A DNA stretch of 64,000 nt from assembly GCF_000007345.1 (NCBI RefSeq), contig NC_003552.1, positions 2,046,001 through 2,110,000 on the forward strand, in the 5' to 3' direction. The stretch is from Methanosarcina acetivorans C2A. Its GTDB lineage: Archaea > Halobacteriota > Methanosarcinia > Methanosarcinales > Methanosarcinaceae. Shown here one piece after another: positions 47,083 to 64,000 of the stretch (position 1 is its first letter; the number at the start of each line of letters is the position of its first letter). A program made the position numbers and the translations under genes. Below the pieces are notes generated by a model that was not told the DNA's origin, did no database searches, and saw nothing but the letters and a program-made list of their open reading frames with translations.

Positions 47083-48267
47083 TTAGTTTTCTGTGCCCGT
47101 GTCATTATGAGCAGCTCCCGGATACCAGCTTTTCTCCTGCAAGGAGTGGATCAAAGCCAGGTAAAGATCTCGAAGTTTTTCTTCATAGCCTTCAATTTCT
47201 GCCAGAAAACCGGACCCTCCTTCCTCAAGACTCTTGGTTGCGGTTGACTCCAGGTTTTCAGCAGATTCTTTCAATTTTTCCCTTGCTCTTGTAACTGGAG
47301 CGGCACTCATATTCTTTTCAGTTTCGTTCGCTTTTTCACCTGTCACGGCAAAGTGAGAGAAACCCGTAGTTTCGGCTTCCAGATAAAGATTTTCTACATC
47401 CTCCTTCACTTTCTTCGTAAGCAAAGGCTTCCATTCCTCGCCGTCAAAGTGTGCCAGGACAATTGAATTTACATCGATACCGTTTTCCATGACCCACGTT
47501 TTGTCCACTCTGAAACCGATAACGGCATTTTCGATATTTTCCGGTGTTGCAACACCTTCGTTTCCAACCCAGATATTCAGGTATTTGTAGACCTCACCAT
47601 CGGGTGTGTCTGAAGTAAGAGTGGACCGCTCTTTCAACATCTCAATGATGGTTGTGATCTTTCCGAGGGTTTTTTTGGCATCAAACTCCACATACTTTAC
47701 GCAGGTGGCATCCTCTGTGAAATTAAACCTTGCACGACTGCCAGCTGTTACATACTGCTGTGAGAGTTCTCTGGCTTCTACGTTACTGGCAGGTTCCGGA
47801 GATCCCCCTCCTCCTCCTCCGGAAGAACTGCCACCTGAAGAGCTCTTTCCGGAGGAACTACTCCCTGAGCTTGAGATCTCGATATGGACAGGAATCATAA
47901 TCCCTGTTCCAACATCTCCGCCGGGTACGGTACATGGGACTTTTATCTTGCAGTCTACGTCCTCTTTAGCCGAAGCCGGAACATTGAGCGTTACCTTAAC
48001 TTCTTTATTTTCCCCTGCTTTCAGCTCAAAAGAAGAGACAGAAAATGTAAACCAGCTACTGTAAGTGCTGTCATCGATGAAAACGTTATATGTTGCAGTT
48101 TCAGTCCCTGTGTTTATCACATATAACGACTGCTCTGCCGAACTTCCCGGAGCAAGCATGTAACTCATGTTACCGGGGCTTACCCCGATTCCTATGTCAG
48201 AAGCAGTAGCAACGACCTGCATCGAGACCATAAAAGCAATGATAAATAACACAACTTTCATTCTCAT
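47083..48267 (-). CDS. PGF-pre-PGF domain surface protein
   Basis: This 394-residue secreted protein has a signal peptide (1-22), an Ig/NEW3-like beta domain (about 25-130, with YMLAPGSSAEQSLYVINTGTE and KAGENKEVKVTLNVPASA) and a serine/glycine linker (about 133-155). A PGF-pre-PGF domain follows (about 157-310), recognised by YVEFDAKKTLGKITTIIEML and GFSHFAVTG. That domain usually precedes a PGF-CTERM sorting tail, but here the chain continues as a charged helical segment (REKLKESAENLES and on) and ends without the tripartite tail. It is therefore released or held by other contacts. GAGGT stands before the ATG. It is monocistronic. Confidence 0.85.
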   Translation of the reverse strand: MRMKVVLFIIAFMVSMQVVATASDIGIGVSPGNMSYMLAPGSSAEQSLYVINTGTETATYNVFIDDSTYSSWFTFSVSSFELKAGENKEVKVTLNVPASAKEDVDCKIKVPCTVPGGDVGTGIMIPVHIEISSSGSSSSGKSSSGGSSSGGGGGGSPEPASNVEARELSQQYVTAGSRARFNFTEDATCVKYVEFDAKKTLGKITTIIEMLKERSTLTSDTPDGEVYKYLNIWVGNEGVATPENIENAVIGFRVDKTWVMENGIDVNSIVLAHFDGEEWKPLLTKKVKEDVENLYLEAETTGFSHFAVTGEKANETEKNMSAAPVTRAREKLKESAENLESTATKSLEEGGSGFLAEIEGYEEKLRDLYLALIHSLQEKSWYPGAAHNDTGTEN

Positions 48268-48707
48268 TCATAAACCTCAAGATTTCCGGGCTCCTGTTAT
48301 GATCGAACTTCTTCACGATCGGACTGTGATTCTAAATTATTTTTTTCTGCCGGATTTATATCTTAAATTGAACTTCCGTTGATTGTAATGTATGTTCAGT
48401 TACTTTGTAATTTATGTTTAGTCCATAATTAATTTACAAATATTACATATCTTGAGATTCTTATATTAAAAATATTTGTTTTTGTTTTATTTATTCTAAA
48501 ATAGAACATCATATTATTTGATTTAGTACATATTTTGTGTTAATTATTTGTTATCACCTAACTGAAACCCTCCTGAAATGTCATCTTGTTCCTGCTCGTC
48601 TCAAAATCAAATTAATCTGGAGAAATCTCGATTCCTGCAGGATAAAATGAATTTTTGAGCTTTTCCGTATTTATTGCAGGATTGTTGCTCCCGCTGCAGA
48701 CAAAAAT
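48268..48707. other. AT-rich intergenic region
   Basis: 440 bases between two minus-strand genes. It contains the promoter of the PGF-pre-PGF gene and several TATA-like AT tracts around 48420-48550. No gene is seen. Confidence 0.4.
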
Positions 48708-49883
48708 TCAGTATTCTGAGGTGGATTCCAGAGAATTTTCTGCAAGAGTTATGACCTTCCGCTTCAGATCCTCAAGATTTGTAAAAAATCCGGTGTATTC
48801 TCCTGAAAAGAGTTCATGTTGAAGCCTTCTCCCGAGTTCGTCGTCCATTTCGGGCTTTAGATGCAGGACCAGAGACCCCGGGGCATAGTTCACTGCAGTT
48901 GCAAGTTCGTCACAGTCCCCGTCCGTAATCCCCAGAACAGGGATTCCAAATCTGTATAGGATATTTCCTGCAAGCTCCGTTGTGTCATCTCCAATAGTAA
49001 TGGCAAGCCCTGCTCCTTCAATTAGCTCAAATGCACGCTCTGCGCAGTGGTCTATAAGGATAACCTTCACACCGCTCTCCGGGGTTTGTTCCTGTAAAAA
49101 ACCTTTTTTCAGAGGAAGATTTTTCTCCAGCCCTCTGGTTTTATTTTCGAGCGGGTTTTTGCAGACATCCGAACTTTTTCGGGAAGCTGAGGTTTTTACC
49201 CATGCTCTTACAAGGTCTAAGGGCACTCTTTCTCCATGCTTATGAAGGATTTCAATTCCCTGTTCCTTTATGATTCCTCCTTCCATTGAAGTAAGAAATC
49301 CATTTTCAGCTACAAGGGCGACCTCCGAGGAAGTAGCTTTTCCAACCACAATTCCTTCGACCATTATGTTTGCCCCCGGGAAAGTTGAGATTCTTCTCAC
49401 AACCCGTTTTCCCTGGTTACTTATCTCTATATTGTTGACTGGCAGAGGGGGCCTGGAAATTTTAAGGTTAAGAAGATTGGAGAGTTTTTTTGCATGGGGA
49501 CCCGCAGCCCTGTTCCAGGGTATAAGTTCCCCATCAAAGCATCCTGGCCTTTCAATCTGGATCAGGGGTTTCTCATCAGGATTTTTTATATTCGAAACCA
49601 CAATCCTTCCGAAAGTCCGGCCTGTTTGAAGTTCGCGGCCGTGGTTCAGAAGGCACACAAGGTCGTTTGATCCGAAAAGAGTCTCAATGCAGGCACTGGG
49701 TTTCAGAAACTGTTCTATTTCGATCAGATCTTCAAGACCGGCATCAATCGCCGCAACTTTCCCCATAGTACCGCAGAGGCAGGCATTTATGCAATTTTCC
49801 CTGGAAAGAAGGGCAAGAATGTCTTTTACCGTCTGGGGAGAATCCATAAGCTGGAGGTTATGAATCACAATTCCAATTTGCAT
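48708..49883 (-). CDS. DUF2117 family protein
   Basis: This 391-residue soluble protein matches the methanogen-associated DUF2117 family. The N-terminus MQIGIVIHNLQLMDSPQTVKD starts an alpha/beta domain with a CLCGTMGKVAAIDAGLEDLI segment near residue 36. The middle has FGRIVVSNIKNPDEKPLIQIERPGCFDGELIPWN-type sequence, and the C-terminal domain has KVILIDHCAERAF and ITIGDDTTELAGNILYRFGIPVLGITDGDCD. The GDDTTE and GITDGDCDE stretches look like a nucleotide- or metal-binding site. A variable, lysine/serine-rich insert lies around residues 235-270. No reaction is known. It is monocistronic and conserved in gene content across methanogens as far as I recall. Confidence 0.8.
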   Translation of the reverse strand: MQIGIVIHNLQLMDSPQTVKDILALLSRENCINACLCGTMGKVAAIDAGLEDLIEIEQFLKPSACIETLFGSNDLVCLLNHGRELQTGRTFGRIVVSNIKNPDEKPLIQIERPGCFDGELIPWNRAAGPHAKKLSNLLNLKISRPPLPVNNIEISNQGKRVVRRISTFPGANIMVEGIVVGKATSSEVALVAENGFLTSMEGGIIKEQGIEILHKHGERVPLDLVRAWVKTSASRKSSDVCKNPLENKTRGLEKNLPLKKGFLQEQTPESGVKVILIDHCAERAFELIEGAGLAITIGDDTTELAGNILYRFGIPVLGITDGDCDELATAVNYAPGSLVLHLKPEMDDELGRRLQHELFSGEYTGFFTNLEDLKRKVITLAENSLESTSEY

Positions 49884-50294: not shown

Positions 50295-51500
50295 TTGGTG
50301 AATGGTTTGATTGAAGAGTTCGCAATGGCAATACGGCAGTTGCGCCTTAAAAAACTAAGAACCTTGCTTATTCTCCTCGGAATTGCTATAGGAGTTGCAA
50401 CGGTAGTAGCTGTCGTTTCTTTCGGGGAAGGTCTTCGTATCAATGCAGTCGAAGAAATCCAGAAGTCCCGGGACCTGACTCTGATTGAAGTTTCTCCGGG
50501 GATCAGAGGCGACGGTCTTGTCCTTATAAGCAACTCGAAAGTAGAGGAGATTAAGGAACACGCAGAGCTTGTCTGCCCTTACGTAAAGGACGCTTACGTC
50601 AGCCCTTCGGGGACTTATTTTGAATTGTTCGGGGTCCAGGAAGTTTACAGGTCTGCAAACGAGCTCGAGCTGGCCGGTGGGACCTGGTTTGACAGCGGAG
50701 AGGACAGCGAAGAGAACCGGATCGTTCTTGGAAGTGACCTATGGGAAAAACTGGAAAAAATAGACGGGGCAAAAATTGGGACCCCGATTACAGCAAGTCT
50801 GCGCCTTTACGGAGAAGACGGCAGACCTCTTGATAAGAAAGTAACTTTTACTCCCGTGGGCCATCTGAAACCCTCCGGAAACGAAATCGATTCAGGAGCT
50901 TTCATGAAGCTTGAATCTGCAAAAGAACTCAGTGAAAAGGAGCATTATGACGGAATTCTGATAAAGGTGGAAAGTTCTTCCCTGGTCCACGAAACAAGGG
51001 AGCAGGTAGAAAAACTGGGACTTTCCACCTCAAGTGCCCAGGACGAAATCGACTCGGTCAACAGGATCATGAACGGGGTTACTCTTGTCCTTGCCTTTTT
51101 CTCAAGCATTTCCCTGCTCGTAGGCGGGTTGATGGTTATCAATACAATGGTGATCTCAGTCTACGAACGAACCCGGGAAATAGGGATTTCAAAAGCTCTC
51201 GGAGCTTCGGAGTCGGATATCCTGCGGATGTTTTTAGCCGAATGTCTCTTTATAGGAACCCTGGGAGGATTTTTAGGGGACTTTTTTGGGGTTCTTTTCG
51301 CAACCCTCATAGATAGGGCAGGAAGAGCTCTCCTGATGTCGAGGCTTGAAATAGGAAGTATTGAACACCTGACTGCCCTGAACTTCAAGATTCTTGCGGC
51401 CGGGATCCTGATCTCCTTACTCGTATCCGTAATCTCGGGGCTCTACCCTGCCTGGAGAGCCTCAAAACTGGATCCTGTAAGAGCTTTAAGGCAGCTTTGA
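50295..51500 (+). CDS. MacB/FtsX-type ABC transporter permease
   Basis: This 401-residue permease has the four-helix MacB/LolC topology: a first helix (about 20-45, LRTLLILLGIAIGVATVVAVVSFG), a large extracytoplasmic MacB-like domain (about 50-255) and three C-terminal helices (about 258-285, 312-340 and 362-387) with the FtsX signature YERTREIGISKALGASESDILRMFLAE. Such systems use ATP to drive a mechanical movement of the outer domain, exporting or releasing lipids, peptides or surface proteins. No ATPase is adjacent, but a MacB-type ATPase gene lies at 61.3 kb at the far end of the same locus. TTG 50295, GTG 50298 and TTG 50307 are possible starts. It opens a three-gene operon. Confidence 0.9.
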   Translation: MVNGLIEEFAMAIRQLRLKKLRTLLILLGIAIGVATVVAVVSFGEGLRINAVEEIQKSRDLTLIEVSPGIRGDGLVLISNSKVEEIKEHAELVCPYVKDAYVSPSGTYFELFGVQEVYRSANELELAGGTWFDSGEDSEENRIVLGSDLWEKLEKIDGAKIGTPITASLRLYGEDGRPLDKKVTFTPVGHLKPSGNEIDSGAFMKLESAKELSEKEHYDGILIKVESSSLVHETREQVEKLGLSTSSAQDEIDSVNRIMNGVTLVLAFFSSISLLVGGLMVINTMVISVYERTREIGISKALGASESDILRMFLAECLFIGTLGGFLGDFFGVLFATLIDRAGRALLMSRLEIGSIEHLTALNFKILAAGILISLLVSVISGLYPAWRASKLDPVRALRQL

Positions 51501-51560
51501 AAAAAGAACAGGCAATTTTTCAGGAGCAATTACAGGAACAATTTTTCAGGAGACACCACC

Positions 51561-52493
51561 GTGGATACCGGGAAAAAAATTTTAATAGCTGGGCTTCTAG
51601 GAGTAGGACTGCTGTTCCTGATTCTCTTCTTTTCGGGAAACGGGGGCTGGCAGGGAGACGGCATCCCCCCATATACAATCGCAGAAGGAACTGTTAGGGG
51701 AGAGGTATATGTCGACGGCGGGCACGGCTATACCGGAGAAAATCCTTATCTCCAGTATTTCGAACTGCCTCTGGGAGATGTAAAGTATGCAAGGCTTTAC
51801 GTGCCTGTCTGGAACTACGACAGTGGAGACAGTATCCGGGTGACGGTCAATGGAAAAGAACTTGCTGTAAGACAGGAACCTGATTATGCTTCGGCATGGG
51901 GTACAGCTCTCTACTGTCTCGAGTCCAATACTTCCCTTGGCCCCGGGTTAAATGAAGTCTCGGTCCTATCCGAAAACCCGGGAGGAGGTCCATATGGCAT
52001 CACCCTGGTTGCCGTTTGCGAGAACAGATCCCTGCCTCCTGTCAGGTTCTGGATCAACGAAGGCAACTATGCCCTTACCTATACGAATAAACAGGACAGG
52101 GTAACAAGCACCTTTAAAGGTGCATCTCCAGGGAAAAATGCAAGCCTTTACGCTATGCTGGTTGCAGGCACCGAAGGAGAAAAGGATGATCTCTATTTCG
52201 ATTCCTTAAAGATCGGTAGCGATGTGGGGAACTCCTCGCAGGGAAAGTACTTTGACCTGTATTCGACTTCGGTTTCCCCGAAAAGTACGGAAAGTATCCT
52301 GAGCTTCGAAAGGGGAGAGGAAGGCTATCTCCATCCCTGCGTTGCAGTCCTTGTTTCAGAATCGGAATCAGACAGTGAATTTCTCAAACTTCATGAGCAG
52401 AAAAGCTCAACAGGAGGACAGATCCCGTATTCTGTAATCGTCGTATCCATTCTAGCCTGCCTGGCGCTTGTCCTGAGGTTCAGGAAGAAATGA
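51561..52493 (+). CDS. DUF3344 surface protein with two membrane anchors
   Basis: The 310-residue protein is one of four DUF3344-type proteins in this locus. A membrane/signal segment (residues 7-26) is followed by the DUF3344 domain (about 35-280): GIPPYTIAEGTVRGEVYVDGG, a YARLYVPVWNYDSGD strand and an EGYLHPCVAVLV closing strand. A C-terminal helix (about 285-304, SVIVVSILACLALVLRF) and the basic tail RKK anchor it. It is exposed on the cell surface. The start is GTG 51561 with AGGAGA before it. It lies 60 bases after the permease gene and 76 before the S-component fusion, so all three are probably one operon. The fold's ligand is unknown. Confidence 0.82.
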   Translation: MDTGKKILIAGLLGVGLLFLILFFSGNGGWQGDGIPPYTIAEGTVRGEVYVDGGHGYTGENPYLQYFELPLGDVKYARLYVPVWNYDSGDSIRVTVNGKELAVRQEPDYASAWGTALYCLESNTSLGPGLNEVSVLSENPGGGPYGITLVAVCENRSLPPVRFWINEGNYALTYTNKQDRVTSTFKGASPGKNASLYAMLVAGTEGEKDDLYFDSLKIGSDVGNSSQGKYFDLYSTSVSPKSTESILSFERGEEGYLHPCVAVLVSESESDSEFLKLHEQKSSTGGQIPYSVIVVSILACLALVLRFRKK

Positions 52494-52569
52494 TGTTTTG
52501 AGAACAGAAGCCCCTTACCAGAATTAAAAAAAGGCAGACGAAAAGAGGTAAAACGAAAAGAGGTAAAAT

Positions 52570-53661
52570 ATGAAATACGGACGGATTCTCACATTAATGC
52601 TTGCAATTATCCTGGCAGCTTTCTGGGTTCCCGGAGTTTCTGCATCAGATGAAGTTTCAGGCTCAGCTTCCTCCTCTCTCGGGTTAGGCCTGGAAATCCC
52701 CCTTGACAAAGATCAGGCTCCCGATGTCCTTGTAGCTGGACACTCCTGGGAAAGAGCCCGGCTAAACCTTGAGAATCCGGGCACTGAAACCCTGAATAAC
52801 ATAACCGTGTTCATCGAAGTTCCGGAAGGTCTGGAAACCAGCATTCCTTCCCAGCCGTATCAGATAAAAATAGAAGGGCAGCAAATTACGGCTGAAATCG
52901 GGGAACTGGCTTCTGGACAAAGTGCAAGTCTCCTTCTGGACATAAAGCCTCCTGTTTCCGTTGAGTTCAAAAAAGAGGCCACATTCACGATTAAGGCAAT
53001 CTACTCCGGAGGGGAGCAGCAAAGCAAGCACACCGTCAGCCTCATACCTCCACCCTCCTGGCTTACTTATTTTACTATCCTGGCAAGCCTCCTGCTTTTT
53101 GCAGGCATTCTGGCTGCATTCAAACGCTCAGGAGTTCTTGACCTCTTTTCAACTGTTGACCTGATAACCATAGCTCTTCTTGCAGCCGTTATTGCCGTTG
53201 TGTTCCGCTATCTGAGCAAGCTCATCAACCTGGGCTGGTTTGACGGGCTGGTCATTGCAATTCCCACCGTTGTCCTTATGGTGGTCGCCCTGCAGCTGGT
53301 CCGAAAGCCCGGGACTGCAACCCTGCTCTTTACCTGTGTCCTGCTCATAAGCATGGTTGTCTGGGGTTCCCATATTATGTGGCTTGGCTTTTACCTTGCC
53401 GAAGGAGTTGTCGTTGACCTCCTGGTCATCCTCTTCGGGATGGACTATGCCGACCGACGCCTGACCGCCGTAATCTACGGCATATCAAGAGGGGCGGTCT
53501 CAACCCTTGTTTTTTATCTGCTCTATGCACCTGTTGAGTGGAAAATCTCCTATGCGCCCTGGTATATAGGGCTTCAGCTCTTACTTGCATGTGCAGGGGG
53601 GTTAATTGGGGGATTGCTCGGTTACGATACGGCGGTAAAAATGAGCGGGGCAAGGCTTTAA
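52570..53661 (+). CDS. NEW3/CARDB-like domain fused to ECF S-like component
   Basis: The 363-residue protein has a signal peptide (1-26), an extracellular beta-sandwich of NEW3/CARDB type (about 45-157: ARLNLENPGTETLNNITVFI, GELASGQSASLLLDI) and then six hydrophobic segments. The first (163-184) is an anchor. The remaining five (about 195-355) resemble the substrate-binding S component of ECF transporters, especially the YkoE-like group: TVDLITIALLAAVIAVVF, then LQLVRKPGTATLLF, a GSHIMWLGFYLAEG helix and a GGLIGGLLGY glycine helix. ECF ATPase and EcfT genes are the next neighbours, which supports this. The extracellular domain fused to an S component is unusual. The substrate is unknown. GAGGT precedes the ATG. 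Confidence 0.7.
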   Translation: MKYGRILTLMLAIILAAFWVPGVSASDEVSGSASSSLGLGLEIPLDKDQAPDVLVAGHSWERARLNLENPGTETLNNITVFIEVPEGLETSIPSQPYQIKIEGQQITAEIGELASGQSASLLLDIKPPVSVEFKKEATFTIKAIYSGGEQQSKHTVSLIPPPSWLTYFTILASLLLFAGILAAFKRSGVLDLFSTVDLITIALLAAVIAVVFRYLSKLINLGWFDGLVIAIPTVVLMVVALQLVRKPGTATLLFTCVLLISMVVWGSHIMWLGFYLAEGVVVDLLVILFGMDYADRRLTAVIYGISRGAVSTLVFYLLYAPVEWKISYAPWYIGLQLLLACAGGLIGGLLGYDTAVKMSGARL

Positions 53662-55502
53662 AATAAGCTCACCTCTTCTCCACTATCGTTTTCTTCAACT
53701 ATTTTTTCGATTTCCGTGGGCCTGCAAGCCGAAAGTTCAGGACAGCGGGCCTTAAGGAAGCTTTTCAGGTCGGAAACGGTAAGCAGCCGGGGAATGTCTA
53801 TTCCCAGTTTCCTGAGGTCAAGGGCAAGCCTTGCAGGAAGGGGAGGGAGAAGCCCGGCTGCACCCAGCTCTTCAGGGCTTGAAAATACCTCGGCTGTCGG
53901 GCCGTCCAGGAAGATTTTTCCCTGTTTCATCACAACAACCCTTTCCGCATACTCCGCTGCAAGCTCCATGTCATGGGTTATGAGAATCACGGTTTTTCCG
54001 AGCCCGTTAAGTTTCCTGATTTTATCCAGGAACTTACGGATATGCCCCCTGTCCTGCCCTGTGGTAGGCTCGTCCAGGATCAGCAGGTCCGGTTCAAGGG
54101 CAAGAATGGAAGCTACTGCCAGGCGCTGGCGCTGCCCTCTTGAGAGCGCGTGAGGGTGCCTGTTCCTGTAAGCCGAAAGTTCCATCATTTCCAGGGCAGA
54201 ATCTGCCAGCTTTTTGATTTTCTCTTCCGGCATTCCCAGGTTCTCAAGCCCGAAACAGACTTCTTCAAAAACGCTGTTGGTAAATATTTGAGAGTCCGGG
54301 TTCTGGAAAAGGTAACCTACCTGCTTTGAAAGCCGGGCAGTGGAATACCCGCTTATGTCTTTTCCATCGAGGAGGATTCTACCGGAGGCAGGCCTGTAAA
54401 ATCCTATAAGGTGGCCTGCAAGGGTTGTCTTTCCTGCCCCATTGTGCCCGAGCAGGGCAAGAAATTCCCCACGTTTGATTTCAAGGTTGAGTTTTTCAAA
54501 AGCTTCCGAACCGTCCTCATGCCTGTAGCAAAGCTGTTCAATCAGGACATGAGGAGGGGTATTTCGGGGCTGCGGTGCGGGAGCTGGAATTTCGGATTCT
54601 CTTTTCTCAAGGTCTTCGGGGTGGATTTCTACCTCAGACGCCTGCAGAAGTTCTGTCAGCCGTTTCAGAAGAGTTTCATAAGCAGGAATACTTGAATTTT
54701 CGGAGAAAAAGCCCAGGAAGCGTGCAATCTCTGTGAACTGGGGAGGATGAATCCCGAGCTTTCGGAGTTTTTCCTCCTCGCGGCACAGGATTTCAAATGG
54801 TTTTCCATCCAGAATGACCCTTCCTTCATCCATAACAAGCATGCGGTCTACCATTTCAAAAACAGCATCGAGTTTGTGTTCGATCAGAATGAGAGTGGTC
54901 CTGTTTTCTGCATTCAGATGTTTGAGCAGTTCAAGCACCTCCCCGGTACCTGCAGGGTCCAGGTCCGAGGTTGGTTCGTCAAGGACCAGGATTTCCGGCT
55001 GCATTGCCAGGTTTCCTCCGATCGCGGTCCTCTGTTTTTCCCCTCCCGAAAGCGTGAAGATAAAATGGTCTTCCAGACCTTTAAGCCCTACTTCTTTTAG
55101 CACTTTTTTCACTCGGATTCGGATTTCTTCCCCGGGCAGCCCGAGATTTTCAGGCCCGAAAGCAAGGTCTTCGGCCACGGTCAGGGAGAACAGCTGGGTT
55201 TCGGGGTTCTGGAATACCATTCCTACTTCAAGGGCCAGACTGTGGACTTTTTCATGTGTCAGGTCTTTTCCCCGGAGCAGGACGCGCCCTGAAAAGCTGC
55301 CCCCCGAAACCTCAGGTACCAGCCTGTTAAGGCAGCGCACAAGAGTACTTTTTCCACAGCCGCTAGGGCCTGCAAGGAGCACGAACTCTCCTTTTTTAAG
55401 CTCAAGATTCACATCCGAAAGAGCAGCGGCATCCGAATATGGATAGTTGTATGTAATTTTTTCAAGTCTGACTTGCGGAGAGGTGTCTTTCGAGGGATCC
55501 AT
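53658..55502 (-). CDS. ecfA: ECF transporter fused double ATPase
   Basis: This 614-residue cytoplasmic protein contains two complete ABC ATPase domains. Domain 1 has Walker A GPSGCGKST (45-53), Q-loop FQNPETQLFS, signature LSGGEKQR (151-158) and Walker B LVLDEP (172-177). Domain 2 has GHNGAGKTT (352-360), FQNPDSQIFT, LSRGQRQR (453-460, glycine to arginine in the signature) and LILDEP (474-479). The FQNPxxQxF loops are typical of CbiO/EcfA. Fused pairs are typical of YkoD-like systems for thiamine precursors and some metal ECFs. It energises uptake with EcfT and the S-like protein. Its stop overlaps the stop of the convergent S-component gene by four bases. Confidence 0.93.
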   Translation of the reverse strand: MDPSKDTSPQVRLEKITYNYPYSDAAALSDVNLELKKGEFVLLAGPSGCGKSTLVRCLNRLVPEVSGGSFSGRVLLRGKDLTHEKVHSLALEVGMVFQNPETQLFSLTVAEDLAFGPENLGLPGEEIRIRVKKVLKEVGLKGLEDHFIFTLSGGEKQRTAIGGNLAMQPEILVLDEPTSDLDPAGTGEVLELLKHLNAENRTTLILIEHKLDAVFEMVDRMLVMDEGRVILDGKPFEILCREEEKLRKLGIHPPQFTEIARFLGFFSENSSIPAYETLLKRLTELLQASEVEIHPEDLEKRESEIPAPAPQPRNTPPHVLIEQLCYRHEDGSEAFEKLNLEIKRGEFLALLGHNGAGKTTLAGHLIGFYRPASGRILLDGKDISGYSTARLSKQVGYLFQNPDSQIFTNSVFEEVCFGLENLGMPEEKIKKLADSALEMMELSAYRNRHPHALSRGQRQRLAVASILALEPDLLILDEPTTGQDRGHIRKFLDKIRKLNGLGKTVILITHDMELAAEYAERVVVMKQGKIFLDGPTAEVFSSPEELGAAGLLPPLPARLALDLRKLGIDIPRLLTVSDLKSFLKARCPELSACRPTEIEKIVEENDSGEEVSLF

Positions 55503-55612
55503 ACTATCATGCAGCTTTTTACACCTTGGAGTTTAAAATCCTTATGAAAAGTAAGAAATAGTTTGATTGTCATTCAATTTTGTATGAAGTTCCCCGGAGG
55601 AGGAATTGCGCC

Positions 55613-56476
55613 TTGAAGTGGCTCTTTCGTTATGAACAAAAAGACAGCCCTCTTCACAGGCTGGACCCGAGAGTGAAGCTGCTCTGGCTTTTCGGGGTAT
55701 CGGTCCTGAGTGTTGTCCTCGGGACTCCTTATTTGCTGGTGGCCCTGTTCGCCTCTACCCTACCTTTCTGGTTCGTCCTGAGACCCTCAAAAAGCAGGGT
55801 AAAGGCAATGCTCATCGTCTTTGGGAGTATCGGGCTGGGTTTTATTCTCTCGCAGGCCCTTTTCTACTACTGGGCAAGAGAGCCGCTGTTCACCCTCGTA
55901 CCTTCTTCCTTTCCCCTGCTGGGCCCCCTTACGGGAGGGATCTACTTCTATGCTGACGGGGCCGTCTACGGGCTGTATCAGTCTTTCCGTTTTATGACTT
56001 CTCTGAGCGCTGCAATGCTGGTGTTGGCCACAAGCCATCCCTCGGGGCTTATCTCCGGGCTAGTCAGATTTTTCGAAATAAGAGTAGGAGGAAAAAATTA
56101 CAGGATAGGCCTTCCCTACGAGCTTGCATTCATGCTATCTTCCGCAGTTAGCTTTGCCCCCACGCTGCTTGAAGAAAGCGGGATAATCCTCAATGCGATG
56201 CAGGCAAGAGGGCTTGAGTTAAAAGGCGGGGTCCGTACGAAAGTAAAGGCCCTGAAATACATCCTTGTCCCTCTCGTGGTTAATATACTCCGGGCAGGGC
56301 GAAAACTCGCAGTCGCAGCTGACACCCGGGGTTTTCGGGCAAACAGGCACAGGACCTACGTAAATGAGCTCAGGTTGAAAAGCAATGATTACCTTTTCCT
56401 TGCATACACAATCCTTTTTACGGCAGCCGGGCTTTACCTGAGTTATTCGGGGTTCGGAGGGACAGTCCCGGTCTGA
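55613..56476 (+). CDS. ecfT: ECF transporter T component
   Basis: EcfT (287 residues) is the coupling membrane subunit of ECF transporters (CbiQ family). It has the N-terminal SPLHRLDPRVKLLWLFGVSVLSV helix, further helices to about residue 120, and the two cytoplasmic coupling helices with A-R-G motifs: MQARGLELKGGVR (near residue 200) and ADTRGFRANRHRT (near 240). The last helix is at about 258-278. The start is TTG 55613, because GGAGGAGG lies eight bases before it; the longer frame has no ribosome binding site. It is divergent from the double ATPase gene, with 110 bases between them, so the two promoters overlap and may be co-regulated. Confidence 0.92.
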   Translation: MKWLFRYEQKDSPLHRLDPRVKLLWLFGVSVLSVVLGTPYLLVALFASTLPFWFVLRPSKSRVKAMLIVFGSIGLGFILSQALFYYWAREPLFTLVPSSFPLLGPLTGGIYFYADGAVYGLYQSFRFMTSLSAAMLVLATSHPSGLISGLVRFFEIRVGGKNYRIGLPYELAFMLSSAVSFAPTLLEESGIILNAMQARGLELKGGVRTKVKALKYILVPLVVNILRAGRKLAVAADTRGFRANRHRTYVNELRLKSNDYLFLAYTILFTAAGLYLSYSGFGGTVPV

Positions 56477-56518
56477 CCTGAAATGCCCTCCGGAAAAAGC
56501 AGTTCTGAAAAAAGCCCT

Positions 56519-57844
56519 TCATTTTCGGGTATTCTGCTTTCGGTGACCTGCAGCAAGTTTTCCTCCTGCCAAAAAGGCAAGAGTAGAAACTAATTCGAAT
56601 CCGGGAGCACTTTCTGTTTCATCTCCTGGATTTTCTATGCCGGAAGCTTCCGGGTTTTCAGAGTTTTCCTCTGAAGAGGCCTGCACATCTTCTGTCTGCG
56701 AATCTTCCTGTGAATCTTCCTGCGAATCTTCCTGTGCTTCTTCTGTCAGAGAGTCTTTTTCAACCACCAGGAAGGACCCCGAAGGCACCACATAATCTCC
56801 TACAGCCTGGAAAAGGATGGAATTTTCTCCGGATTTCAGGTAGTCCTTTACTTCTCTTGTGTCAATATCCAGGTCAGGGTAAGGCTTACCATTGCAGATT
56901 CCGGGGAATTCGTTCCCATTAATCAGAAGGACATTATCTTCCCAGTTCCCGGACTGAATGATCGTCCAGAGCGTCGCACTGCGAACAGGAAACTGCAGAG
57001 TGGGCCTGAGCATTTCACATATTGTCTGGTTTGGGCTAGCATAGTAAAGCGGATTTCCGTTTTCATCCATCTGGGAATTGAGTTCGTCAGCCCCTTCCCC
57101 TATCCAGTATTCCATATACTTCCCGTTAGGGTCCGTATATACAATAAGCAGCCCCACCCCGTCAAAACAGACATAAGGAATACCTGAGCCCGTGTTTTCA
57201 ATTTCCGTGCTAAAAGTGCCCGAACCGGGAACGTACGCACTCACATCATAAGCCCAGGTACCCGTGGGATAATCATAAATGCCCCAGCCTTTCCTGTCAC
57301 TGTATTCCCGTTCAGGTTCAGGGCTTTCCCCGTTAAAGCTCAGGCTCATCTCGGGATACTTCCCGGTGATCCCTTCGGCACTCCAGGTCCAGTAGACATA
57401 GAGCCTTGCAAATTTCACGGTCGCTCCCTCAGGCAAGTTTACGTTATGTATTACAGAATACACATCTCCGGGATAGACTTTCCCACTGTAGTAGCTATTT
57501 CCTATCGTATAGAAGAGGTCTCCCTGAACCGTATCATGGCTGTATAATTCAAGAGGTTTGTCTCCCACATATCCATTGTTCTCAGGAGACTGGGCCAGGG
57601 CAGAAGGAGCCGCCAACCCGCAGAATAATGTAATCAGGAGACATATTCCGGCAGTTAGAGATAGTATATTCCCTACCTTGCCGAGCTTTTTCTTCCTGTC
57701 TCCGAACCTGTTTTTGCACCTGCTTTTTTCCGTTCTGTCAAAATGCCTGATTTTTGCTTTACATCCTGCATTTATTATTGGATTCTTCCTGATTCTGCAG
57801 GGAAGCCTTCGGTCCCCTTTACGCTTTATACTTCCGGCTTGCAT
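56519..57844 (-). CDS. DUF3344 surface protein with PGF-CTERM-like tail
   Basis: This 441-residue protein has a long basic N-terminal stretch before a signal helix (about residues 58-83, ILSLTAGICLLITLFCGLAA). The DUF3344 domain then begins YVGDKPLELYSHDTVQGDLF and includes KFARLYVYWTWSAEG and VCFDGVGLLIVYTDP. A low-complexity spacer of QEDSQEDSQ repeats follows, and the C-terminus reads APGFELVSTLAFLAGGKLAAG with a basic HRKQ tail. This has the PGF plus hydrophobic plus basic layout of PGF-CTERM sorting signals, which archaeosortases cleave, though the hydrophobic part is poor. The start is ATG 57844, eight bases after AGGTGG. It is convergent with ecfT and divergent from the next DUF3344 gene. 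Confidence 0.8.
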   Translation of the reverse strand: MQAGSIKRKGDRRLPCRIRKNPIINAGCKAKIRHFDRTEKSRCKNRFGDRKKKLGKVGNILSLTAGICLLITLFCGLAAPSALAQSPENNGYVGDKPLELYSHDTVQGDLFYTIGNSYYSGKVYPGDVYSVIHNVNLPEGATVKFARLYVYWTWSAEGITGKYPEMSLSFNGESPEPEREYSDRKGWGIYDYPTGTWAYDVSAYVPGSGTFSTEIENTGSGIPYVCFDGVGLLIVYTDPNGKYMEYWIGEGADELNSQMDENGNPLYYASPNQTICEMLRPTLQFPVRSATLWTIIQSGNWEDNVLLINGNEFPGICNGKPYPDLDIDTREVKDYLKSGENSILFQAVGDYVVPSGSFLVVEKDSLTEEAQEDSQEDSQEDSQTEDVQASSEENSENPEASGIENPGDETESAPGFELVSTLAFLAGGKLAAGHRKQNTRK

Positions 57845-58498
57845 TACTCTTCCCACCTGAAAAGTCACTGATATTCTTTTAGAAATTCAGATCTTTGGTA
57901 ACAATTTAAAATAGTTTCTAATTAAGATATTGAGGTTCTTTTATAACAATTAGAACTAGTAAACAATAAGGTAAACTGAATATATAAATTCTTTTAAAAA
58001 ATAAGTATTTGTGAATATATCATAACATATTTTGTTACTATTTTTCTATTTATGTTCACTAAATGCGGCTTCTATATTCTGGATCCAACTAAATAACCCC
58101 ATGGTGAAACGACCTCAAAAAAGTCTCAAGAAGCCTCAAGAAAGCTTTAAGCAAGCCTCAATTACCTCTCAATAGAGGTCGAATAGGCTGGGAAGTTAAG
58201 AGGTCTGCGGGATTTGAGGCAGTGTTTCAGGCTTTTTTTCAGTTAAATTTCCTGCAGCTTCCCGGGAAATATCCCAGAGTATATTTTTGCATTTAGTAAT
58301 GTCTAACATTTGTAATATTTCATACAAAAAAGAAAAATAGTAATATTTAATAACCTTTACTTCACAGTAATTATTTAATGGTAATATGTTTATTACATTG
58401 ATTACGTCTCAGAGAAAGGAGTTTATAAGAATATAAAATCAGAGGCAGTCTGAATCTCTCTGAGATTCAAATTTCACTCTGTAAGAAAGTGAACGGCA
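57845..58498. promoter_or_regulatory. Shared promoter region of divergent DUF3344 genes
   Basis: About 650 bases separate the two divergent genes. AGCCTCAAG/AAGCCTCAA units recur near 58125-58165, with a short hairpin, ACCTC-tcaata-GAGGT (58173-58188). TATA-like tracts are abundant on both strands (57945-58020 and 58330-58400). Divergence suggests that both genes could share control, but no known operator is recognised. Confidence 0.45.
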
Positions 58499-60286
58499 AT
58501 GAAGACAGAACCTGTAAAGATAACCTTACGATGTATATTCTTGCTCTCAGTTCTACTCTCAGCCCTTCCTGCAGGAGCCGTATACTCTTATGATGGCATA
58601 CCCCTTGCCTCGGACGCTCAGGGCACGTTCAGGGGAGAGATCTACATAGATGGAGGACACGGGCTTTCATTTCCCCCATACTCTCAGGAATTTGACGTAC
58701 CGGATGGCACTCTCCGCTGGGCTCGCCTGTATGTAGGTGTATGGGGAGGTACGGAGAACTATAAAGGTTGGGTCCGACCAGAATTTAACGGGCAAAAGCT
58801 TGAACAGTTGCAGCTTGCCGGGGTCGAGGACCAGAACGAAAATGTATACTGTGCAGGTCACGGGGTTTACTGGGTTTCCTATGACGTCAGCAACATCACG
58901 AAAAACGGGAATAATACTGTAGTGGTCCTTACAAGCAGTGGGGAGCCTGGAAACAAACTGGACGGGAGAGTCTATGGAGCGGTACTTGCCGCAGCCTGTG
59001 AAGACTCAAAAGCGCCCCTCATATCCTACCAGCTCCTGAGCGGAAACGTAAACCTGCACGGGAAAGGCTGGAGCGGGACTCTCGCAAATGTAAACGACCA
59101 GACAGACGTCAATTTTATTTCCTCGCAGATACCGGGCAGCCCGGAAGATGCTACCCTTTCTGTAGTATACCTTACAGGGTCAAGAGGTTTGCCTGATTAT
59201 CTGGAATTCAACGGAGAAATGCTTGGTGTTTCCCCTGCGTACCTAACCGAGAGCTATGGTGGAAAAGCAATGGATATTGCCAATGAGGTTAGCTTTGATG
59301 CCTCGGGAGAAAAGGGCTTTTCTTCCAGTTACTTTGATATAGAGCATTTTGACGTACTCAATTACTTACAAACCGATAATACCGTGTCTTTTGTGAGAGG
59401 ACTTGACCTGGACGGGGATAAGGAAATCGGAATCCAGGAAGGAGAAGATTACCTGCACCCTGTCCTTGCAGCTCTTGTCCTGAGTTCCGGGAGTACCGCT
59501 TCCGTACTTCCTGACCTCTACCCTGAGATGAAAATCCCGGAACAGGAACTGGTAGATGAAAAAACGGCGGAAATTTCCTTTACAATAAACAATCCCGGGG
59601 GGATCTGCGAAGAGAACTGTACGGTAAGCTTCAGGGTTGACGGAACTGAGGTTTTAACTTCCTCTGCCCTGATGGACGCCTCCGGGGTTTACAGGTCTTC
59701 ATTCTCATGGCCGGCAGTCGAAGGGGAACACCTGCTTGAGCTTGCCGTTGACTCCGAAGCCAAAATAAAAGAGTCGGACGAGGAAAATAACGTATGTGCA
59801 TTAAATGTTAGCGTCAAATCAAAGCCTGACCTTTCGGTTTCTCTGGAAGAGCCCGTGAAAATTGAGGCTCAGGAAGAGACTTCATCAGCGTCACTACTTT
59901 TTCTTTCGTTCCTATCTCTTTTCGGAGCCCGGAGAAAAAAACCTCTTTTCCTGCTTTTACTTGCAGTATTCATAATAGCGGCTTTTAGCGGCTGTGTTGA
60001 GGAAACACAGACAGTAGAAAAAACCGCCTACTCTATCCCGCTAAAGATTACAAATAGTGGAGAAGCTTCAGCTCTGGACTTTGATGTAACCCTCTATCTT
60101 GATGGGGAAAGTGTTACTGTCCTGAAGATCCCGGAACTTGAAGGTCAGACTTCAATTGAGGACCGGATCAGAGTTCAGACCCTTAAGGGTGAGCATACCC
60201 TTAGCGTGAAGGTAGATGAGCATAATGACATAGTTGAGTCGGACGAGGATAACAATGGATTTGAGGAAAGCTATTATTTTAATTAA
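58499..60286 (+). CDS. DUF3344-CARDB protein fused to CARDB lipoprotein
   Basis: This 595-residue protein has a signal peptide (1-27), a DUF3344 domain (30-332, GIPLASDAQGTFRGEIYIDGG, RWARLYVGVWGG) and a CARDB-like domain (340-437). Then comes an anomaly: a hydrophobic stretch ending in a basic cap (462-481, LLFLSFLSLFGARRKK), followed at once by a perfect lipoprotein signal peptide (482-499, PLFLLLLAVFIIAAFSGC) and a second CARDB-like domain (505-590). It reads like a complete anchored protein joined in frame to a second lipoprotein with its start lost at an A7 run (59934-59940). If unprocessed, two opposed membrane helices would leave both domains outside. The next gene starts inside its 3' end. 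Confidence 0.82.
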   Translation: MKTEPVKITLRCIFLLSVLLSALPAGAVYSYDGIPLASDAQGTFRGEIYIDGGHGLSFPPYSQEFDVPDGTLRWARLYVGVWGGTENYKGWVRPEFNGQKLEQLQLAGVEDQNENVYCAGHGVYWVSYDVSNITKNGNNTVVVLTSSGEPGNKLDGRVYGAVLAAACEDSKAPLISYQLLSGNVNLHGKGWSGTLANVNDQTDVNFISSQIPGSPEDATLSVVYLTGSRGLPDYLEFNGEMLGVSPAYLTESYGGKAMDIANEVSFDASGEKGFSSSYFDIEHFDVLNYLQTDNTVSFVRGLDLDGDKEIGIQEGEDYLHPVLAALVLSSGSTASVLPDLYPEMKIPEQELVDEKTAEISFTINNPGGICEENCTVSFRVDGTEVLTSSALMDASGVYRSSFSWPAVEGEHLLELAVDSEAKIKESDEENNVCALNVSVKSKPDLSVSLEEPVKIEAQEETSSASLLFLSFLSLFGARRKKPLFLLLLAVFIIAAFSGCVEETQTVEKTAYSIPLKITNSGEASALDFDVTLYLDGESVTVLKIPELEGQTSIEDRIRVQTLKGEHTLSVKVDEHNDIVESDEDNNGFEESYYFN

Positions 60287-61253
60287 CCTCCTGCTACTCA
60301 TTACCCCGGTTTCGGCGTCATATGCAGGCGATAAACCCCTGCAGACGGTCCTCTATGACAAACACCAGGGAGCTCTTGAATTTTCTCTCGGGGACAGCAG
60401 GTACAGCGGGGAGCTTGAACACAATAACAGTTATCAGGTGAACTTTGATATCGAACTCCCGGCCGGGAGTTCCGTAAGGGTTGCGAAGGCTTACGTTTAC
60501 TGGGTCTGGAGCAAAAAAGGACTTGAGGGAATCTATCCGAAATTTAATGCTTCTCTTGTACATTCGGGCACGGTTCTGCCTCTCCAGGGAGGGCAGATGT
60601 ATACGGATACAAAGGGTTTTGTCTCCAGGTACGACTTTTTTTCAGGCGCGAATGCCTTTGATTTGAGCGAGGAAATTTCCGAATCCGGTACTTACTCCAT
60701 CTCGCTTGTAAATTCGGCAGAGGACGGAAGCACCTTTTGTGTGCAGGGAATCGGGCTTCTGCTCGTCTATGAAGGTTCAGAGTTACCTGTAATCGAGTAC
60801 TGGGTCAATGAAGGCTGCGACATGCTGTATGCAGAATACGGGATAGACCCCGAAATGGCCACAACGACAGCTTATTTTGAGGGGGACATCAACTCCGAAA
60901 ATATCGCAACTGCACGCTTGATAACAGTTTCTCCTTCAGGGGGATACAGTTCAGGTACAGGAGCCCGGAACAGGCTTTACTTTAACGAGAAAACCGGGAG
61001 TATTCCGGTTATTGGCGATATCATACAGATCCTGTTCGGTGGAGGAAAAAGCTGGAAGAATATATACCAGACAAACGAAACTGTCCAGGTTGCTCTGGAC
61101 GAAAGGCAGGTAGGGACTTATCTGGAACCTGTAGAAAACTTTGTCAGTATCCAGGATAACGGAGATTACCTTCTGGCAACGAATGCAATACTGGTGCTTG
61201 AATATAAAGAACCTGAAAATAAAGAGCCTGAAAACCCAGGGGAGGGAAGCTGA
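60255..61253 (+). CDS. DUF3344 surface protein without anchor
   Basis: This 332-residue DUF3344 paralogue begins MDLRKAIILINLLLLITPVSAS, a clear signal peptide. The domain reads YAGDKPLQTVLYDKHQGALE, then VAKAYVYWVWSKKGLEG and FCVQGIGLLLVYEGSELPVIEYW. It is closest to the PGF-tailed paralogue at 56.5 kb. The C-terminus ends in EPENKEPENPGEGS with no hydrophobic tail, so it is free or complexed. ATG 60255 overlaps the upstream gene by 32 bases and has GAGGAT six bases before it, which implies translational coupling. It is followed 25 bases later by the ABC ATPase gene in the same operon. The longer open frame (from 60234) has no ribosome site. Confidence 0.8.
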   Translation: MDLRKAIILINLLLLITPVSASYAGDKPLQTVLYDKHQGALEFSLGDSRYSGELEHNNSYQVNFDIELPAGSSVRVAKAYVYWVWSKKGLEGIYPKFNASLVHSGTVLPLQGGQMYTDTKGFVSRYDFFSGANAFDLSEEISESGTYSISLVNSAEDGSTFCVQGIGLLLVYEGSELPVIEYWVNEGCDMLYAEYGIDPEMATTTAYFEGDINSENIATARLITVSPSGGYSSGTGARNRLYFNEKTGSIPVIGDIIQILFGGGKSWKNIYQTNETVQVALDERQVGTYLEPVENFVSIQDNGDYLLATNAILVLEYKEPENKEPENPGEGS

Positions 61254-61278
61254 TTTTTTTACAGGAAAGGGATACGAA

Positions 61279-61953
61279 ATGAATATAGTTGAAACCAGAA
61301 ACTTAGCCAAGTATTACACATTCGATTCAGGGCTGCGCGTTGAAGCTCTCAGGGGAATAAATGTGAACATTGAAGAGGGAGATTTTGTTTCCTTTATGGG
61401 TCCTTCGGGTTCGGGAAAGTCCACCCTGCTTAACATTGTTGGCTGCCTGGACCAGCCGACATCAGGTAATGTTTTTATCGAAGGTCGCGAAATTGATTAC
61501 AGGAATTCTTCCAATCTTGTCCGTCTTCACAGGCAGACAATAGGTTTTATCTTCCAGGCTTTTAACCTCATCTCCACAATGAATGCCATGGAGAACGTCT
61601 GCTACCCCCTGTACTTTAACAGAGTCCCCCACTCCCGGCAAGAAAAGAGGGCAACCGAGCTTCTTAACCTGGTCGGGCTCGGAGACAGGATGCACCACCT
61701 GCCTTCCGAGTTATCAGGAGGGGAACAGCAAAGGGTTGCTATAGCAAGAGCTCTTGCAAACAACCCCAAGCTTATCCTGGCAGACGAACCTACAGGAAAC
61801 CTTGATTCAGGTACCGGGAAAAAGGTCACGGACCTTATGAGAAAAATCAATCGAGAGCAGGGCGTAAGTTTTCTTGTTACGACTCACGACCATGAAATGG
61901 CCAGAACTGCGGACAGGGTGATAAAACTGAAGGATGGGAAAATAACTGATTAA
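61279..61953 (+). CDS. MacB/LolD-type ABC transporter ATPase
   Basis: This 224-residue ATPase is of the LolD/MacB type. Walker A is GPSGSGKST (41-49), followed by LLNIVGCLDQPTSG; the Q-loop is GFIFQAFNLIST, the signature LSGGEQQRVAIARAL (about 142-156), Walker B LILADEPTGNLDS and the switch histidine in TTHDHEMA. It should pair with a FtsX/MacB-type permease. None is adjacent, but the permease at 50.3 kb is the only one in the window and lies at the opposite end of the same locus. The start at ATG 61279 agrees with family N-termini (MNIVETRNLAKYYT); the upstream frame overlaps the preceding gene. It is the last gene of a three-gene operon with two DUF3344 genes. Confidence 0.93.
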   Translation: MNIVETRNLAKYYTFDSGLRVEALRGINVNIEEGDFVSFMGPSGSGKSTLLNIVGCLDQPTSGNVFIEGREIDYRNSSNLVRLHRQTIGFIFQAFNLISTMNAMENVCYPLYFNRVPHSRQEKRATELLNLVGLGDRMHHLPSELSGGEQQRVAIARALANNPKLILADEPTGNLDSGTGKKVTDLMRKINREQGVSFLVTTHDHEMARTADRVIKLKDGKITD

Positions 61954-63293: not shown

Positions 63294-64000
63294 TCATATC
63301 ATTGCAAACATATCCACTACATCATCGAAGTCTATCCTTCCGTTTCCGTTGAAGTCGAAGTACTCCACCGGCATATTTTCCTCTATCCAGTCCATATTGT
63401 GGAAATAAGCCACTATATCCACGAAACTGAACTCCCCGTTTCCGGTGAGGTCTTCATAGAGCCCATCTCCGTCGAGGTCTCTAGGGGCATATTCCTGGCC
63501 CGGCAGTGGGGACAGAAGGGTTACTTCAATTGTCCCTGCCAGGAGAGCTGGTTCGATAGAGTCTCCGGAATCGTCCTCCAGACGTTTAACTCCTATTGAA
63601 AGGTTCGCAGATCCTTTCTCCTTTCCAGAAACAGTGAGAGTGGCAAGCACAACATCTGCTGCCCCTTCCTTAACGGAATCTTCCAGGTCAACAGTCTTCA
63701 TGTAGATCGAAGTCCCGGGCAGGGTAGAGTTCTCAGTAATCAAAGCCCAGGAAGGGTACTCGATATCAACTATTTCGGCAACAGCCGGGTCGTCGAGAGC
63801 AACGGTCAGGTTGTAGCCTGCAAGACCTGCAGGGAAGTTGCTTGCAACGAGATTTATTTCAGTAGATTCGTTTTCCGAAACTGAGGAACTTTCAGGGTCG
63901 AAATAGAGAGTTACAGTTGACCCGGAAGCTTCGGAAACTTCGATGTAACTCGATTTCAACTCAAAGTCAGAACCTGCATCATTTTCCACAGTCAGATTTA
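63294..64000 (-). CDS. Cohesin/dockerin-type surface protein, 3' part
   Basis: Only the C-terminal 235 residues are in the window. The frame is open through the right edge (…NLTVENDAGSD), so the GTG at 63989 is not the true start. A cohesin-like beta domain (about residues 22-155: VTLYFDPESSSVSENESTEINL, AGYNLTVALDDPAVAEIVDIEYP) is followed by a short linker and a dockerin-like pair of calcium loops: DLDGDGLYEDLTGNGEFSFVDIV and FDFNGNGRIDFDDVVDMFAMI at the very end. Cohesin-dockerin pairing assembles extracellular complexes. Here one protein carries both types, as in several archaeal surface proteins. The upstream part may add more repeats or a signal peptide. Confidence 0.85.
   Translation of the reverse strand, partial: NLTVENDAGSDFELKSSYIEVSEASGSTVTLYFDPESSSVSENESTEINLVASNFPAGLAGYNLTVALDDPAVAEIVDIEYPSWALITENSTLPGTSIYMKTVDLEDSVKEGAADVVLATLTVSGKEKGSANLSIGVKRLEDDSGDSIEPALLAGTIEVTLLSPLPGQEYAPRDLDGDGLYEDLTGNGEFSFVDIVAYFHNMDWIEENMPVEYFDFNGNGRIDFDDVVDMFAMI

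Follow-up and report, generated by a model that had tools for sequence, protein, structure and literature searches.

A DUF3344 surface-protein locus of Methanosarcina acetivorans joins a LolD–MacB cassette to a putative YkoE-type ECF importer

What brings an energy-coupling factor (ECF) importer, a MacB-type machine and four surface proteins of the DUF3344 family together at one archaeal locus? The question is raised by nine genes at positions 50,295–61,953 of a 64,000-nucleotide stretch of Methanosarcina acetivorans C2A DNA. This whole stretch, here called the window, covers positions 2,046,001–2,110,000 of the single 5,751,492 bp contig of the genome (NC_003552.1). An earlier note, made from the sequence alone, had described the nine genes as one coherent transport system, and Pfam and TIGRFAM profiles bore out all nine with the domains it had named, the S-like gene by a sub-threshold match. 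Coherence holds in that the genes recur together elsewhere, but not in the sense of a single operon, since EcfAA and DUF3344b are encoded on the minus strand. We conclude that the grouping is a non-chance joining of two older modules. Tentatively, and with slightly less than even confidence, we read it as a surface-capture and import system in which DUF3344 proteins capture a ligand, a LolD–MacB pair performs work and a YkoE-type ECF unit imports a metal-bearing micronutrient.

The ECF unit is complete at the level of its S, T and A parts. EcfT (CbiQ family; 55,580–56,476, plus strand), the T component, matches PF02361 at 89.9 bits (cut-off 25), while EcfAA (53,658–55,502, minus strand) carries two ECF-type ABC ATPases in a single chain, with two stretches each matching TIGR04520 (485.7 bits) and TIGR04521 (475.5 bits). 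The S protein (52,570–53,661, plus strand) reaches 15.3 bits against PF09819, below the cut-off of 25.2, and a relative in another locus (L075) passes that cut-off at 26.9 bits. A bacterial PF09819 protein, whose gene neighbours are two EcfA genes and one EcfT gene, aligns with the S profile at 96% in hhalign and has the motif LVRKPGTAT in common with it. The predicted model of the S protein, with a mean predicted local distance difference test score (pLDDT) of only 70, aligns with YkoE (5edl) over 169 residues (Z 16.5, root-mean-square deviation 2.7) at model residues 189–363. Its other top structural matches all concern an Ig-like outer domain at residues 34–160; this domain alone was represented among the top matches listed by Foldseek for the whole model, and YkoE appeared in a second comparison. 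Sequence searches of the PDB returned no relatives of the S protein, YkoE included. Within the genus, the transmembrane part is nearly invariant and the outer domain is variable. These comparisons point to an extracellular Ig/NEW3-like domain (residues ~34–160) on a predicted YkoE-type S component (~189–363); the call of an S-like protein, sub-threshold by score alone, is thereby upheld by the relative, the profile comparison and the fold.

The S protein has a constant neighbour. A scan of named genome contigs yielded 26 convincing relatives, plus the one remote bacterial protein, and in every one of the 26 the gene immediately upstream of S is a DUF3344a orthologue, usually with EcfT ahead of DUF3344a and EcfAA divergent. 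In the window, DUF3344a (51,561–52,493, plus strand; Pfam) consists of an N-terminal signal or transmembrane segment, one DUF3344 domain and a C-terminal transmembrane segment with a basic tail. Hosts of the S relatives are Methanosarcina, anaerobic methanotrophic (ANME) archaea of the ANME-2 cluster, Methanosarcinales metagenome-assembled genomes, Methanoregulaceae and Methanospirillum. Across the phylum, the S profile matches 9 of 393 genomes, and all nine also carry DUF3344; plasmid and viral collections held no relative of S and none of the bacterial PF09819 protein. The S, T and A parts are dedicated and co-encoded in most relatives, and in six Methanosarcina genomes S lies apart from T with both retained. 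Module 2 is an ECF importer of group I whose S protein carries an extra outer domain and which has a DUF3344 protein as its dedicated partner; micronutrient import, as first proposed, is the natural reading for it.

Module 1 is defined by its recurrence in relatives. At opposite ends of the locus stand a MacB/FtsX-type permease (50,295–51,500, plus strand; MacB_PCD and FtsX by Pfam, 82.8 and 77.7 bits) and a LolD-like ABC ATPase (61,279–61,953, plus strand; ABC_tran). The ATPase scores 244.1 bits against TIGR02211, under the equivalog cut-off of 307.75, and both genes fall below the LolD and the MacB equivalog cut-offs. When regions of up to 20 kb around DUF3344 matches were surveyed in other Halobacteriota, a repeated, Pfam-checked cassette was found, composed of DUF3344c (~600 residues, DUF3344 plus CARDB), DUF3344d (~340 residues), a LolD-like ATPase and a MacB-like permease; a very large DUF3344 protein usually comes next. 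It occurs in eight families, the window's included (f1, f2, f9, f13, f15, f18, f25 and f26). In almost all relatives, among them L073, L074, L077 and most distant loci, the permease adjoins its LolD homologue; we therefore regard the distant permease and ATPase of the window as a true pair, as had been supposed, separated in Methanosarcina. Pfam detected no MacA-type membrane-fusion adaptor family among the nine locus proteins. The window's DUF3344c (58,499–60,286, plus strand; Pfam), whose orthologues form part of the core cassette in other families, combines DUF3344 and CARDB, an internal signal segment and a second CARDB domain. Its end is overlapped by DUF3344d (60,255–61,253, plus strand), to which PF11824, a model and alignment with relatives assign a signal peptide and one DUF3344 domain. 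The likely starts of DUF3344d (~60,255) and of the ATPase (~61,279) were revised from relatives.

Does the joining of the two modules persist beyond this genome? The S protein is present in 14 of 31 Methanosarcina genomes, and close orthologues of EcfT and DUF3344d (each above 500 bits) occur in exactly those 14. The order MacB–DUF3344a–S–EcfAA–EcfT–DUF3344b is intact in eight of them. In the remaining six, the MacB–DUF3344a–S part is intact and EcfT and DUF3344d lie elsewhere, between ~34 kb (G003) and 1.1 Mb (G002) away or on another contig. The earlier note had held that occurrence in unrelated places would make the grouping chance; the halves do lie apart in these six genomes, yet both are kept. 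That halves lying apart are retained in the same genomes speaks more strongly for joint function than synteny does, with the count taken over 14 close relatives and not 14 independent events. Together with the invariant position of DUF3344a ahead of S, it upholds the claim that the DUF3344 and ECF genes belong together. In ANME-2-type loci (L124, L129 and L130) both modules form a single block, EcfAA (minus strand)–EcfT–DUF3344a–S–DUF3344c–DUF3344d–LolD–MacB. The ECF unit is joined to the cassette in Methanosarcina, ANME-2-type Methanosarcinales and a few Methanomicrobiales. In most families the DUF3344–LolD–MacB cassette stands without this ECF unit, which goes against a single system of one origin.

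The neighbourhoods of DUF3344 clusters give a clue to the ligand. Of 14 near-complete genomes selected on DUF3344, nine have a CobN-family gene no more than 15 kb from a DUF3344 cluster (expected 0.28) and nine a FecCD permease gene at that range (expected 0.94). As a control, we took the 71 MacB_PCD genes of those genomes, 13 of them DUF3344-linked: a CobN gene lies within 20 kb of 7 of these 13 and of none of the 58 others, and the same counts (7/13 against 0/58) hold for FecCD. The DUF3344 loci so associated also contain ChlI/ChlD-type and periplasmic binding protein genes. Because the same cassette adjoins CobN and FecCD genes in other families, the ligand is most likely metal-bearing, with a tetrapyrrole or metal chelate first in line; we favour a metal chelate, perhaps a tetrapyrrole. 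In Methanosarcina barkeri, two CobN homologues respond to iron and sulfur source (PMC10846266). DUF3344 neighbours seen in single genomes include a ZnuA/ABC-3 importer (L103, 1,232–3,784) and CbiM/CbiQ (L079, 7,806–10,540). Two long neighbour proteins, considered as CobN candidates by length, were identified as large chains of carbamoyl-phosphate synthase.

A paralogous ECF unit bears on the same point. In Methanosarcina, the closest paralogue of the window's EcfT (33–35% identity) is found no further than 8 kb from CobN in the complete genomes checked. It belongs to a block comprising an ABC-2 permease, an ABC ATPase, EcfT, EcfAA, a NEW3 plus S-type protein and CobN. The membrane part of this S-type protein matches that of the window's S protein at 26% (E 3e-5, a single comparison). 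The paralogue locus (L140, G000:C1:1026000-1045999; L142) also carries PQQ-type lipoproteins and an S-layer protein. The CobN-linked pair of ABC-2 type permease (~241–247 residues) and ABC ATPase is met repeatedly, both in Methanosarcina and elsewhere among the families (L143, L145, L153 and L140), and may export a product of the CobN step.

The DUF3344 proteins themselves belong to a larger surface repertoire. Those of the locus score 84.9, 237.3, 124.2 and 247.3 bits (a to d) against PF11824 (gathering cut-off 27.2). The genome contains 34 DUF3344 domains in total, most in a run that extends ~60 kb downstream of the locus, in proteins of ~1000–4000 residues that, where scanned, also carry PKD and CARDB and in some cases beta-helix domains. 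DUF3344b (56,519–57,868, minus strand; PF11824 and sequence inspection) has a tail, APGFEL..., that resembles a PGF-CTERM sorting signal; its start codon is uncertain, and the long N-terminus is probably untranslated. The model of DUF3344d consists of two tandem jelly rolls (pLDDT 88). Its fold matches are middling, the best being to GH86 (Z 9.6 over 118 residues), and a function for DUF3344d drawn from them was set aside on that account. Large surface proteins at 63,294–64,000 and further downstream (L024–L026) share a near-identical dockerin-like C-terminus, IEENMPVEYFDFNGNGRIDFDDVVDMFAMI; proteins with this tail contain PKD, CARDB and DUF3344 domains and, in some, NosD/beta-helix.

DUF3344c contains an internal segment that resembles a signal peptide (residues 478–499; 59,930–59,995, plus strand; RRKKPLFLLLLAVFIIAAFSGC). 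It lies between the DUF3344–CARDB part and the C-terminal CARDB domain, and a basic stretch is followed by a hydrophobic segment with a lipobox-like FSGC end, read by eye. This end is FSGC or SSGC in Methanosarcina and ANME-2-type loci and LSGC, TCGC or LSAC in three f9 loci; in the remaining lineages it is an AxA motif, again by eye. One or other motif is present in 36 of 36 orthologues inspected (L028, L073, L082 and L085 among them); a script gave 16 lipobox matches, of which 15 were accepted. A lipobox in some orthologues and AxA in others, at the same position, is what a cleaved signal peptide would lead one to expect. DUF3344c may therefore give rise to two surface proteins, and in some lineages the second would be a lipoprotein. 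The alternative is a plain membrane hairpin.

Two non-coding blocks of the locus are strongly conserved, at 55,542–55,561 (TTATGAAAAGTAAGAAATAG) and 58,336–58,362 (AATAGTAATATTTAATAACCTTTACTT), and are likely promoter or operator elements. Tested as regulon markers, each has one exact match in the genome, at this locus; the first has a few further matches at three mismatches, near the level of the backwards control, and the second matched nowhere else. A DUF2117 gene and a gene for an Ig-like surface protein (47,083–49,883) flank the locus in most Methanosarcina genomes inspected.

How might the two modules act together? In ECF importers, the S component binds the substrate and transport is driven by ATP; in permeases of the MacB type, motion powered by ATP is passed on to parts outside the cell. 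We propose that the large DUF3344 proteins encoded next door would form an outer capture layer for the ligand, and that DUF3344a, anchored beside the S component, would pass it to S for import by S, EcfT and the fused double ATPase. Because such machines work mechanically on structures outside the cell, module 1 would act on DUF3344 proteins; most likely, LolD–MacB would use ATP to move, release or re-set the surface products of DUF3344c and DUF3344d. In a bolder and unlikely form of this proposal, DUF3344 proteins would do in archaea what the NEAT/Isd relay does elsewhere. As a modular surface system they would capture metallo-tetrapyrroles (heme-like, corrinoid or F430-type) and hand them to interchangeable importers (YkoE-type ECF or FecCD), with MacB/LolD powering or re-setting the relay, CobN-type enzymes taking the metal out or putting it in once inside, and DUF3344c serving as a two-in-one precursor cut at its internal signal peptide.

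Several results weigh against capture and import of a metal-bearing ligand. The characterised YkoE binds thiamine (PMC5037267). No CobN or FecCD gene was found at the window's own locus, and no CobN match lies near it in this genome. CbiQ is not in excess near DUF3344 clusters (2 of 14 genomes, expected 0.82), and the sampled genomes are akin, so the neighbourhood statistics overstate independence. The functions of archaeal and methanogen CobN homologues are unclear (PMC12583661). The predicted DUF3344 jelly rolls resemble carbohydrate-binding, PNGase F and P-domain folds, with nothing for tetrapyrroles among them. In the search for regulatory RNA, the window gave no Rfam matches at gathering thresholds, and no shared regulon was found with the two non-coding blocks as markers. 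A YkoEDC-like importer of thiamine or a precursor, with DUF3344 proteins as vitamin-binding receptors and the metal neighbours a property of module 1 only, would fit the modelled YkoE fold and the group I make-up with fused ATPases, as in YkoD (PMC5037267). It sits poorly with the large sequence distance from PF09819, the window's lack of Rfam RNAs, the THI box included, and the chelatase gene beside the closest paralogous Methanosarcina ECF unit, and we judge it quite unlikely.

Surface assembly or adhesion, which we rate as unlikely, would have MacB/LolD and DUF3344c/d build or anchor large DUF3344/PKD fibres in the manner of fibrillar adhesins, the ECF genes having come in on other grounds, for instance a common promoter region. 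The company of PKD, CARDB and beta-helix domains in the 1000–4000-residue proteins, the jelly-roll fold of adhesive or carbohydrate-binding type and the ECF-free cassettes of most families all suit it, as does the entry of DUF3344 among candidate fibrillar adhesin domains, with ambiguous function, in one study (PMC9210967). It nevertheless leaves unexplained why DUF3344a is paired with S in every relative, and why the CobN/FecCD neighbourhood is absent at other MacB genes. A chance meeting of three unrelated gene sets in one genome could draw on the restriction of the full nine-gene order to part of Methanosarcina and on the split locus of six genomes. It is rendered highly improbable by the retention of the split halves together in 14 of 14 genomes and by the reappearance of the same genes, in another order, in ANME-2-type genomes.

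If capture and import of a metal-bearing micronutrient is the function, the locus ties an ECF importer both to a MacB machine and to a capture layer outside the cell, and DUF3344, which just two papers of the literature searched name, gains a testable function from a conserved surface-to-membrane cassette. Methanogens and ANME archaea rely on nickel, cobalt, iron and tetrapyrrole cofactors. Many of them carry CobN homologues of unknown role (PMC12583661), and a NEAT/Isd-like relay, if true, would give these orphan archaeal homologues a role. The internal signal peptide proposed for DUF3344c is a claim apart and concerns the making of surface proteins in archaea. Taken singly, the machines are of known types; the combination, the DUF3344a–S pairing and the DUF3344–LolD–MacB cassette appear to be undescribed in the literature searched, as far as its available text extends.

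Among known systems, the group I ECF thiamine transporter YkoEDC of Bacillus subtilis (PMC5037267) resembles module 2 in its S component of the same fold, its T component and its two fused ATPases, all dedicated and co-encoded. The archaeal S protein differs in its extracellular Ig/NEW3 domain and dedicated DUF3344 partner, and the window lacks the THI box; the thiamine-binding residues Tyr46, Trp49, Glu77, Gln95 and Asp131 are a feature of YkoE. Module 1 shares with LolCDE/MacAB/FtsEX-type mechanotransmission a MacB_PCD and FtsX permease with a LolD-type ATPase, as well as a partner gene with an internal lipobox (DUF3344c), whereas the locus has no MacA-type adaptor and its LolD and MacB equivalog scores are below cut-off. 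In the Hmu heme uptake system of Bacteroidota (PMC12583661), the CobN-family de-chelatase HmuS is encoded beside surface and importer genes. CobN has such neighbours in the DUF3344 islands that other archaeal families carry, although those archaea have no complete hmu operons and the window's locus has no CobN.

Two further systems place an ECF unit among surface proteins. LhaSTA, in the isd locus of Staphylococcus lugdunensis, shows heme to be among the substrates open to ECF units, and works without Isd proteins (PMC7299338). The available text of that study describes NEAT domains, where DUF3344 jelly rolls stand here, and no MacB/LolD pair; like the locus studied here, the isd locus sets an ECF importer among genes for other importers and for surface proteins that have several domains and different anchors. 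For the Methanoperedens plasmid region of ORFs 54–79, the authors proposed biotin, and a MacB pair and an S protein are not described in the available text; there too, DUF3344 surface proteins are encoded near EcfT/EcfA, beside NikR and CbiMNQO (PMC9674854).

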